A stretch of 64,000 nt of DNA, from positions 20,979,594 through 21,043,593 of the forward strand of contig NC_092563.1 of NCBI RefSeq assembly GCF_037975245.1, given 5' to 3'. A model generated the notes under the pieces. The model was given only the letters and a program-made list of their open reading frames with translations. It ran no database searches and was not told the DNA's origin. The DNA comes from Apostichopus japonicus. Lineage: Eukaryota > Echinodermata > Holothuroidea > Aspidochirotida > Stichopodidae. The translations under genes were made by a program, and so were the position numbers. Positions within the stretch are counted from its first letter, which is position 1; each line of letters starts with the position of its first letter. Below, in pieces: positions 36,184 through 55,606 of this stretch.

Positions 36184-36560
36184 TTCTATTTCAACCACAC
36201 AATTCCAGATGATCATGTGAGTGGTATACAAGGAGTATGACAATAATTCCAGATTATCATGTGTGGTACATGCATGATGCTATACACTGAGTATGACAAT
36301 ATTTCCAGATGATCATGTGTGTGGTATGCTATACACTGAGTATGACAATAATTTCACATGAACATGTGTGTGGTACATGCTATACACTGAGTATGACAAT
36401 AATTCCACATGGTCATGTGTGTGGTATGCTATACACTGAGTATGACAATAATTCCAGATGATCATGTGTGTGGTAGGCTATACACTGAGTTTGACAATAA
36501 TTCAAGATGATAATGTGTGTGGTATGCTACTGTATATATACTGAGTATGACAATAATTCC
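36184..36560 (+). repeat. minisatellite of about 50 bp
   Basis: TATGACAATAATTCCAGATG, a variable A/G-TCATGTGTGTGGTA block and GCTATACACTGAG repeat about seven times at roughly 49-60 bp spacing with point changes and small indels. Confidence 0.9.
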
Positions 36561-37119
36561 ATAAACATTGCAACAAAATCTTAATACCCATATATGCTTG
36601 AGAAATATGGAAGGTCAGGTGGCTGCCATTTTGTCCAATGAATGTATGACATTATGAAAAGGAAAGTGCTAGGCTGCCGGCAAACCTTGTGTACTGTATA
36701 GGACTTCAAAGTTACATTCTTGTGCAGGTGTATCTCCAAAGCTCAGGCCTACTCAGTACTATATGTACTTTTCTTCTCAGATACTTTTCATATGTGTTCG
36801 TGCAAAAGTTCTACCTTGTAACTTCCGTGATGTTTCAATCCTGCATAGCAACCTACTATTATCCATTGTTTCTACCTACCTGGAAACCAGTTTGTGTAAA
36901 TGTATAGTAACACAGAAACTATTAGAGTGTGAAAATCCAGGTCTTATGTACAATACAGAATAAACTTCTGAAACCACTGGGACCTAAAAATACCTTCCTG
37001 AATGTACAGTGTCAATAATGAAGACTTATGTCAGATTACCAAACAAGGTCCTGATCACAACAGTTATGAGCGAATTGGGTTGAAAAGAAATCCAAGCACA
37101 AAAAGAATATTGGAGCCAC

Positions 37120-46597: not shown

Positions 46598-46711
46598 GTT
46601 CCTCATTGCAGGTCTAAATGTTAACATTATTTCACTATTTTATACATTCTGATCACTCCCGTACTCGACAACAATGGTGTTCTTCGTGTTAATATTAATA
46701 GCATGCGGAGC

Positions 46712-48084
46712 TATGGCAAGCCGTTTTACTTTTTATTCAATATTTAATGATATCTTTAATTATTTGATGATATCATTAAATCAATTGTTGATATCAAGAA
46801 TTCGAATTGTTGATATCATTAAACTAATTAATGATATCATTAATTCAGTTCATTTCTTGATATCAATAATTCATTTAATGATATCATTAAATGAATAAGT
46901 GATATCAAGAAATGATTTAAAGATATCTTTAAATGTATTTGTGATATGTACATATCACTAATTCGAATTGGTGATATGTACATATCACTAATTCGATTTA
47001 TCAACAAATATGACGTCATATTTACTGATATCACTAATTCGAATTAGTGATATGTACATATCACAATTTACACGAATTACTGATATCATGAAATATGACG
47101 TCATATTTACTGATATCACTAAGTCGAATTAATGATATGTACATATCACTAATTCGATTTAATGATATCAACAATTATGACGTACTTATCAAGAATTCGG
47201 CCATATTTAATGATATCATTAAATATGGCTGCGATATGTCTGGTTATACGGCGTAGTCCCAGTAACTCATCCGTACATAGGCCTTATGGAACTAAGCTGG
47301 TTGTAGTTGGTATGGGTCTAGTGCAGTGCAGTATACATTAAATTAGTTATACGGTAGGCTCAATACGTAAAACTGCTCTTAATATGGCGGGGATTGAAGC
47401 TCACCCAGTTCTAGACAGAATATAATGCACTAACCGCACTGCACTGTACTTCCCGCCACATAATCCCAGGCGCTCAAACTGAGGGCGTAATTGATGATAT
47501 CATTAAATATGGCCGAATTCGTGATATGTACGTCATATTTGATGATATCATTAATTGGAATTTATGATATCATTAAATATGGCCGAATTCGTGATATGTA
47601 CGTCATACTTTTTGATATCATTAATTTAAATACAGATATCAAAAATTCTAATTAATGATATCGTGATATGTACGCCATATTTGATGATATCAATAATTGG
47701 AATTTATGATATCATTAAATATGGCCAAATTCGTGATATGTACGTCATACTTTTTGATATCATTAATTTAAATACAGATATCTGAAATTGAATTTATGAT
47801 ATCTTGAATTGAATTATTGATATCTATAATAGTTCATCTATTTTAAGATATCACAAATTCAATTCATGATATCAGAAAGTTTAATTATGATATCATCAAA
47901 TAAAATAATGATATCAATAATTTCCTTGCACCAATTAATGATGTCATCAAATATGACGTACATATCATTAAAACAATTTCAGATATCATGAAATAATTCA
48001 TGATATCGTTAAATAATTGTTGATATCATTAAATAATTGTTGATATCAATAAATACTGAATAAAAAATAAAATGGCTTGCCATA
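46712..48084. mobile_element. GATATC-array foldback-like element, 1373 bp
   Basis: Terminal inverted repeats begin TATGGCAAGCC and extend, with a few mismatches, through TTTTA-TTTTTATTCA to the first GATATC. The flanks carry the direct repeat CGGAGC (46706-46711 and 48085-48090). The interior is two arrays of roughly 21-bp units centred on the palindrome GATATC, commonly ATTTAATGATATCATTAAAT, with variants GATATGTACATATC and ATATGACGTCATAT. About thirty GATATC sites were counted. A unique 47231-47490 segment separates the arrays. No transposase was seen and the superfamily is not assigned; TA duplication is an alternative reading of the target site. Confidence 0.75.
47386..47457 (-). repeat. 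tRNA-like segment (SINE head or tRNA relic)
   Basis: The minus strand reads GGCGGGA at its start and CCCCGCC at its end, which pair in six of seven acceptor-stem positions over exactly 72 nt. A box-A-like GTGCAGTGCGGTTAGTGC and a box-B-like CTTCAATCCC sit at roughly the expected places, but the D and T arms are imperfect. It is more likely a tRNA-derived SINE head inside the GATATC element than a working tRNA. Confidence 0.45.
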
Positions 48085-48952
48085 CGGAGCACCCGTGATG
48101 GAGTTCAACATAACTTGCCACCGAAATATCTCTTATAAGCTTTATAAAACGCGTTATTTAAGACCATTTTGTCTCCAATCCTGAAAAGTGGTTCGCCCCT
48201 GGAAGAAAAACCCAACTATCATTGTGTCCGAGTTCGTGATATATGTTGACGTTGAAAAAAATCTCTCTAATCAGCAATGAACTTTTCTTTACTTTATTTT
48301 ATGAGGGAGCTAATTCCAGTGGCTTCAATTAGTTGCTTTTGTTAAATATACCCTTTACACTGGCACAAGAAAACAAAACAATACATGAGATTGCAGATCC
48401 ATTGTAAGATATGACCTCACCAATGAAAATATGCAATCTCATATAGAATTAAGTTTCAAACCGATGTCTGTCCCTTCCCTTTCCCCGCCACACAAGAAAA
48501 AAATACATCTCATAGAATAAGTTGAAAACTTATGTTTCTCCTTCCCCTTCCCCTCCACAAAGACAAAAAAACATATCATAGAAATAAGTTAAAAACTGAT
48601 ATTTCTCCCTCCCTCGCCGCTTGCCCTCCACAAGAAGAAAAAAAATAATTGAAATATAATCTGAGCTTTTGGAGTCTTTCCGTCACAAGTATCTCCATTA
48701 CATAAAATAACGATAAATGTTGGGTTAGTTTCGTGTAACACATACACACAGTAGGCTTGCATCATGGAAGTGTTATCCGTGATATTTACTTTCTTCTCTA
48801 CGTCACTGAGACCATTGACCGCTAGTAATAACGTTATGAAATGAGAAATTAATATTTTGGTCAGTCTTCTTGTCTGACAAGTTTCCCACATGGTCATTTT
48901 TGAAGGCGTTAACTTGGTCGGATTCAATTTCAAGAAATAAGGAGGTCACCAA

Positions 48953-54717: not shown

Positions 54718-55606
54718 CCTAAATAGGGTGGTGACAGGACAAAATCCCCCTAGGACAAAATCCCCCAGAGCCAAAATCCCCTTGGACAAAATCCCCCTAG
54801 GACAAAATCCACCCAAGCCAAAATCTCCCCAAGGTATAAAAAATCCCATCAATTCTTTACAAAAATGCGTCATCCCGGTCCCCGGTATCGTCATCCAGTA
54901 CCGTCATCCGGTACCCTCACCAGTATTTCCATTGGTACTCTCAGTGGTTCCCGGACCAGTACTCCGACCATACCCCGACCGGTACCTTAATAGTGAGCCT
55001 GACAGCTACCCCCACCGGTACCCCTCCCTGACCAGTACCCCGGCCGGTACCTCGACCGGTATCCCAACTGGTATCCTGAAAGGCACCCTGACACATACTC
55101 TGAAACGTACCCTTACTAGTACTGGTACATTAAACAGTAATTTGACCAGTACCTTGACCGGTCACTTAAATGTCACACCATGGAGCTATATCCCATGGCC
55201 ACACTAACAGGTAGCCTCGCAATTACCCTCAATGATCTCCCGACCAGTCCCCTGACCAGTATCCGGACTGGTATCCTGACCAGTACCCTAACCAGTACAC
55301 TGAGTGGAACCCTGACTGGTAGAGTGACCAGTATGATGACCGGTACCCTGACCAGTACCTTGACCGGTACCCTCACAGGTACCCTAACAGGAGCCCTCAC
55401 AGTTACACTCGCCAGTACCCTCACTAGTACCCTGACCAGTCCCCTGACCAATCCCCTGAATGTTACCCTAACCAGTGCAATGTCCCATGCCTTGACTGTC
55501 ACACCTGGGCCATCCCTGGTTGTTGCAGGCAGGCTTTGTATGGGTCAGGGGGATATTGTCTGGGGGGATTTTGTCCGGGGGATTTTGTCCTAGAACCCCT
55601 AAATAG
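54718..55606. mobile_element. Mutator-like non-autonomous element with 9-bp TSD and internal minisatellite
   Basis: The element spans 54727-55597. Its termini GGTGGTGACAGGACAAAATC and, inverted, GGTTCTAGGACAAAATCCCC share AGGACAAAATCCCC; the module GGACAAAATCCCC is repeated several times inside each end. The flanks are CCTAAATAG on both sides (54718-54726 and 55598-55606). A 9-bp TSD with G-starting ends suits the Mutator superfamily; this assignment is inferred. No transposase is present. Confidence 0.75.
54880..55500 (+). repeat. 12-bp minisatellite, CCCTGACCAGTA/CCGGTA type
   Basis: Units of the form ACC-CTGACCAGT, ACC-TTGACCGGT and ACC-CTCACAGGT repeat some 45-50 times across the core of the Mutator-like element. 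The 12-bp period keeps long frames open on both strands (TLTS/TLTG and VRVP/VRVL repeats), which are composition artefacts rather than genes. Confidence 0.9.

Follow-up and report, generated by a model that had tools for sequence, protein, structure and literature searches.

The GATATC-rich feature of the window, that is, of the whole 64-kb stretch of Apostichopus japonicus DNA analysed here, is probably a deletion derivative of an IS3EU/GingerRoot transposon, whose palindromes are predicted to be recognised by the cognate transposase in dimeric form. Its placement in IS3EU/GingerRoot follows from the 6-bp target-site duplications (TSDs), the TATGG..CCATA ends and the rva_4 domain. According to the relevant parts of PMC10045372 and PMC12730594, the published features of this superfamily are a 6-bp TSD, TA..TA termini and an IS3-like core, the fungal IS3EU termini reading TAYGG..CCRTA. 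The window element resembles them in its 6-bp TSD and TATGG..CCATA ends, and its coding partner in the IS3-like integrase core. Membership of the superfamily is in itself ordinary. The preliminary description had seen here a foldback-type element belonging to no named family, and neither label is supported: a coding IS3EU partner is present, the TSD is 6 bp and the coding copy, too, has arrays as its subterminal regions, while the feature itself appears as an internally deleted IS3EU/GingerRoot element with a coding relative in the same genome.

The mobile element extends from 46712 to 48084 and is delimited by inverted ends, a 6-bp target duplication and dense GATATC sites. Two exactly matching copies of the TSD, CGGAGC, flank it at 46706–46711 and 48085–48090. 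The left terminal inverted repeat (TIR; 46712–46748, plus strand) starts with TATGGCAAGCCGTTTTACTTTTTATTC, and its inverted copy forms the right TIR (48048–48084, minus strand); TATGGCAAGCC stands at 46712, its exact inverted copy ends at 48084, and TATGG..CCATA is found at both ends. The inverted repeats and the direct repeat that had been described as enclosing the array are thus all exact. Inside the TIRs lie two subterminal arrays. The left one (46749–47217) holds 14 GATATC dyads together with four GATATGTACATATC and two ATATGACGTCATAT units, the centre of its first dyad being 40 bp from the end; the right one (47496–48047) holds 20 GATATC dyads. No open frame of at least 150 aa overlaps the element, and this copy has no integrase of its own.

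With 34 GATATC sites in 46706–48090, out of 48 across the whole 64-kb window, the density of the array is real: when the region was shuffled 1000 times with dinucleotides preserved, the mean was 1.38 sites and the maximum five. The regularity claimed for the array stood only in part. A spacing near 21 bp describes 20 of the 33 gaps (20–22 bp), but the array is discontinuous, twelve gaps measuring 26–105 bp and one, in the middle of the element, 284 bp. Likewise, the statement that each site sits within a longer palindrome was too strong, since symmetry extends past GATATC by at least 1 bp in 26 of the 34 sites, but by at least 2 bp in only 14 and by at least 7 bp in four. AATGATATCATT occurs three times, GATATGTACATATC four times and ATATGACGTCATAT twice. 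Elsewhere in the window, other tandem arrays are found at 36201–36561, 54736–55590 and 48443–48613, with periods of 49 bp, 31/12 bp and 67 bp, respectively.

The full-length relative with a transposase, which the preliminary description had proposed to look for, was found at C12:2785093–2802660. This 17.6-kb element, flanked by CGCGCG, carries the TATGGCAAGCC end at 2785093 and the inverted copy at 2802660, and between them HTH and rva_4 integrase exons, the latter at the rva_4 locus C12:2795255 (E 3.3e-71). It has the same TIR and arrays as the window copy. In what follows, L037 denotes the stretch with its 5′ end and L061 that with its 3′ end. Compared with the coding element, the outer part of the left array of the window is 89.5% identical to the 5′ end, and the right array 93.2% identical to the 3′ end over 529 bp. 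Between the arrays, three remnants can be recognised. The region 47218–47383 (plus strand) corresponds to the 5′ non-array region of the coding element (BLASTN to L037, 79% over approximately 46744–47421). It is followed at 47384–47422 (plus strand) by the first codons of the N-terminal exon of the transposase, identified by comparing a by-eye translation with the L037 ORF; 13 start codons remain, reading MAGIEAHPVLDRI and then a stop, and the L037 ORF contains MAGIEAQPVLDRI. The region 47423–47495 derives from the 3′ non-array region, the match to L061 being 96.8% over 189 bp. The end points of the BLASTN segments to L037 and L061 place the internal deletion junction at 47419–47421, where about 3 bp are common to both sides. 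Because MAGIEAHPVLDRI of the N-terminal exon is kept before the junction near 47420, the window copy is a deletion derivative; as judged from its sequence, it is an internally deleted, non-autonomous, MITE-like element with the ends of its coding partner and no coding capacity.

Other genomic copies bounded by the inverted repeats had likewise been suggested as a check, and they exist in number. Exact matches to the outer TIR, TATGGCAAGCCNTTTTA, mark 319 + 331 = 650 ends in the 671.6-Mb genome, where its reversed control has zero matches. Ends of the inner TIR type were counted genome-wide as well: 178 are of the GATATC type, which is that of the window, and the CTTAAG type accounts for 340 and a third, TATGGAAAGCC, for 286. 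When the element was used as the query, at least 204 matching pieces, not copies, were obtained on many contigs with 40 of 556 candidates scored; among the matches listed, the top-ranking other copy shows 94% identity along almost the entire element. A local satellite would look different, as TIR and TSD are present and matches to the element lie on many contigs. From the 100 outer-TIR places listed, 20 stretches were chosen and cut for inspection, and under the same outer TIR they contained GATATC arrays in eight cases and CTTAAG arrays in 12; L008, L010 and L011 have an array at one end only. The flanks of L010 and L011 are near-identical, and these two may represent one insertion that was duplicated. 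Two long elements proved not to be coding copies: the 9.5 kb from TIR to TIR in L003 belong to a 3.1-kb derivative with a LINE inside it, and not one of the 143 rva_4 rows falls within L004 (9.1 kb). The LINE occupies L003:2915–6912 within a 3.1-kb GATATC element and shows an endonuclease, a reverse transcriptase and, by eye, a zinc-knuckle-like ORF.

Twelve relatives from the element-query search were also cut, so that target sites could be read in a sample of 35 elements (the window, 32 cut copies and two long ones), of which 31 show an exact end on either side within the stretch cut. The 6-bp TSD is perfect in 24 of these 31 and within one mismatch in 28, whereas L009, L012 and L013 are without one. 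The claim that the feature is a mobile element is therefore borne out by 650 outer-TIR ends and by 6-bp TSDs around most of the copies cut. The 24 exact TSDs are 77% GC and have G at position 2 in 19 cases and C at position 5 in 21. Insertion sites thus appear GC-rich and symmetric, G at position 2 being combined with C at position 5 in 17 of the 24. An empty paralogous site was sought with 152 left-flank and 89 right-flank bases with a single TSD between them; not one of the 36 matches crosses the junction, and hence there is no empty-site evidence for the window insertion.

Across the genome, 143 Pfam matches to rva_4 (PF24764) merged into 81 loci. Their distribution is uneven: contig C17, which makes up 37.2 of the 671.6 Mb, holds 35 of the 81 merged loci, and 24 of 61 in a hand-picked list (binomial p 5e-15), an excess that perhaps reflects a repeat-rich or sex-linked region. 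A second coding element, C1:12260970–12283636, spans 22.7 kb and has matching TIRs, the TSD CGGCCG, CTTAAG arrays, an HTH and rva_4. Its HTH exon matches HTH_7 (E 1.9e-5) and is 47% identical to the HTH exon of the C12 element, which alone gives weak Pfam matches, the best being HTH_17 (8.6e-4), short of the curated cut-off. Four elements with rva_4 between matching TIRs span 17.6–26.0 kb. At 33 of the 81 rva_4 loci a HECT domain (PF00632) lies downstream, in convergent orientation, within 15 kb, as compared with 0.35 loci expected by chance, and a HECT within 15 kb in any other arrangement occurs at none of the 81. A HECT gene (E 1.4e-11) lies inside the 22.7-kb C1 element, and the C12 partner has no HECT match row. 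The HECT-domain (ubiquitin-ligase) gene is probably a resident of these transposons, considering L028 and the 33 loci. An ORF in L061 resembles, by eye, the start of a HECT gene.

Array type varies between relatives that have the TIR in common or nearly so. Twenty-two rva_4 loci, mostly high-scoring, were inspected upstream of the integrase core. At 13 of them a TATGG TIR is followed by an array; L074 has an 18-bp array and no exact TIR, L041 and L078 have a TIR-like site and no array, and at six (L038, L039, L040, L043, L045 and L076) both the TIR and such an array are absent from the stretch taken, the edge of which is reached by the gene at L039. Other tandem repeats, left out of the array count, are present at L038, L040, L043 and L045. 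The 13 arrays consist of CTTAAG in the C1 element and L030, of TGATATCA in L032, L033, L035 and L037, and of AGATATCT, together with TATGGAAAGCC, in L031. Further out, L034 has ATG-N4-CAT, mostly every 22 bp, and L036 four units of ACGCGT, both with TATGGTTGGCC; L077 combines two ACGCGT units with TATGGCAAGCC; and direct repeats accompany TATGGAACGCC in L042 (21 bp) and in L044 and L075 (18 bp). In L042 and L044, the HTH-like ORFs lack the GRP arm in the frames seen. Clade C, with these 18- or 21-bp direct repeats, falls outside the dimer model, which therefore does not hold for the superfamily as a whole.

In an integrase tree of 16 rows, the TGATATCA rows group together (91/93), are joined by AGATATCT (83/86) and then by CTTAAG (81/90); ATG-N4-CAT and ACGCGT form a group (96/98), and a further one unites the two direct-repeat rows with L053 (80/92). 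Three of these five groupings have bootstrap values of 80–83, only one of the five is starred, the outgroup row L060 drew a long-branch warning, and L077, with its ACGCGT array and TATGGCAAGCC end, was left out. Array type is in line with this tree. GATATC and CTTAAG arrays are also mutually exclusive: within the first 420 bp of 75 TATGG[C/A]AAGCC ends, 12 of whose source copies were picked for likeness to the window, the two never occur together. All 43 ends of the TTTTTATTC type are GATATC-led, and 22 of the 26 of the CATTTACC type are CTTAAG-led, the remaining four having no array in the first 420 bp.

What is shared between arrays of different sequence is their distance from the end. The first core starts at +37 in 62 of the 69 array-bearing TATGG[C/A]AAGCC ends, which places the centre of the first dyad 40 bp from the end, and at +57 in the other seven. 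The first centre is at 40 in the ATG-N4-CAT lineage and at 39 in the ACGCGT lineage, ACGCGT being found again at +36 in L077. As the copies are related, these offsets, like the conservation described below, rest on some six lineages and not on 69 independent ends. Between 14 and 27 array units were counted per end. In the mechanism that we propose, each transposase would recognise its own dyads through its HTH, in dimeric form. Such dimers would occupy the array one after another, about two helical turns apart, and the first site, 40 bp from the end, would keep the catalytic core in place over the generic TATGG terminus. The address, which determines the transposase that mobilises the element, would then be the palindrome, and the cleavage site the TIR, so that a copy consisting of ends and arrays only, such as that in the window, could move in trans. 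A broader and more tentative reading, which we consider quite possible, is that of a two-part code, in which a generic TATGG terminus for cleavage is combined with an exchangeable, lineage-specific dyad array as the address, giving orthogonal systems in one nucleus. On such a reading, the locking of the first dyad 39–40 bp from the end would imply that the geometry of the HTH dimer is conserved while the DNA word changes.

Alternatively, the palindromes may be recognised by a host regulator and drive the transposase gene as its promoter or enhancer. The exons of the transposase in both the C12 and C1 elements run inward from an array-bearing TIR, and TGACGTCA, which is identical to a CREB/ATF site, has four copies in the array of L037 and two in the window (47011 and 47096). 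This explanation is nevertheless rather improbable: the arrays stand at both ends and at a fixed distance from the end, they differ between transposase lineages residing in one host, they persist in gene-less copies, and the 3′ array of L061 is without TGACGTCA. The proposed mechanism does not account for the TGTACA and TGACGTCA units found in the window lineage; they may represent variants with a relaxed sequence or a regulatory role. Nor does a single site model accommodate the GATATGTACATATC and ATATGACGTCATAT units.

The symmetry of the units bears on whether they are binding sites or stems. In the window dyads, the pairing fraction is 1.00 at positions 1–3 and 0.76, 0.56, 0.29, 0.97, 0.85, 0.32 and 0.91 at positions 4–10, against a background of 0.30; the AA/TT at positions 7–8 is also conserved in the lineages with CTTAAG and AGATATCT. 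Dyad-symmetric units could also be explained if the palindromes were the hairpin stems of a foldback or cruciform element, and many inverted repeats indeed pair across the element. The mean symmetric extension beyond the core (1.82) also exceeds that obtained with flanks permuted among sites (1.37; p = 0.035), albeit only slightly. However, pairing over positions 4–10 jointly is no better than with permuted flanks in any of six array sets (p 0.38–0.955), and at positions 6 and 9, where a stem should pair, it is at or below expectation in most sets. Among 66 position-wise tests, uncorrected, position 5 pairs above permuted in the window (19/34, p = 0.023) and in the C12 element (21/37, p = 0.034), and below permuted in the L032/35 and L031 sets. 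In the same uncorrected series, positions 11–14, which overlap the start of the neighbouring unit, pair above permuted in four of the six sets, namely at position 14 in the window (p 0.006) and the C12 element (p < 0.001), at positions 11–13 in L032/35 (p 0.002–0.02) and at position 11 in L031 (p 0.026). As position 5 and positions 11–14 exceed permuted in part of the sets, some excess pairing stays unexplained. On balance, the pattern favours a gapped dimer-binding site over a hairpin, although some structural role is possible; hairpin stems as the nature of the palindromes appear highly improbable to us, and homodimer sites would be the best reading of them.

Comparison between copies gives a similar picture. 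Among 15 copies, variation is 0.018 in motif columns as against 0.044 in the free columns of the same units (p = 6e-4, the motif classes having been chosen after the array profile was seen), 0.027 in linkers and 0.031 at the dyad centre; position 7 alone, at 0.026, varies as much as the linkers. This is relevant to the view that slippage and gene conversion have expanded the arrays passively at the transposon ends, much as in a satellite, and that they play no part in mobility. The array does contain tandem 20–21 bp units with higher-order periods of 42, 43, 68, 70 and 142 bp. Moreover, transposon-related satellites exist, and tandem repeats linked to IS3EU are already on record, since two oyster satellites are similar to it (in the part of PMC8268682 concerned). 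Passive expansion is unlikely all the same, given that the +37 offset is constant across lineages with different cores, that conservation is dyad-symmetric with free positions between the conserved ones, that motif columns vary less between copies and that the deletion derivative in the window has kept its arrays at both ends.

Several known systems resemble parts of this arrangement. The En/Spm (CACTA) element, with its 3-bp TSD, has many repeated transposase-binding motifs, 12-bp TnpA motifs in mixed orientation, in both subterminal regions; its transposase is unrelated. Foldback (FB) elements of Drosophila have long inverted ends made of short repeats and a 9-bp TSD, while the present element has a 6-bp TSD and a coding IS3EU partner. 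A protein with GRP arm and HTH, acting as a dimer on an inverted-repeat site, is exemplified by Hin-type resolvases on hix; Hin is, however, a serine recombinase, whereas here the HTH precedes a DDE integrase. The hAT element Hermes has an 8-bp TSD. In the portion of PMC10368747 that deals with its left end, quasi-palindromic subterminal repeats inside the TIR bind paired BED domains cooperatively, and cleavage suffers severely when their distance from the TIR is changed by 1 bp. To that extent, Hermes is a precedent for subterminal repeats at an exact distance from the TIR; it differs in belonging to another superfamily, in using a BED zinc finger, in having few sites as compared with 14–27 units per end and in lacking a series of lineage-specific cores. 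What would distinguish the present elements from described IS3EU/GingerRoot members are the dyad arrays, the element sizes of 17.6–26.0 kb and the convergent HECT at 33 of 81 rva_4 loci. The words ‘subterminal’ and ‘HECT’ are absent from the available text of PMC10045372, and the accessible parts of IS3EU accounts mention no dyad-symmetric subterminal array. None of the listed titles and openings of abstracts mentions dyad arrays, lineage-specific cores or a 40-bp distance.

These elements bear on the question of how a transposase lineage can acquire a new DNA specificity and yet keep the ends that belong to it. A single genome contains at least five related lineages with a common or similar terminus, a 39–40 bp geometry and different palindromes; predicted partner sites can therefore be read from the sequence and tested in pairs. 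If the proposed reading is true, these lineages would constitute a natural record of change in transposase specificity, with orthogonal transposition systems operating in one nucleus. It would also explain why gene-less copies with arrays persist in numbers. The A. japonicus elements thus offer candidate orthogonal, integrase-based transposon systems.
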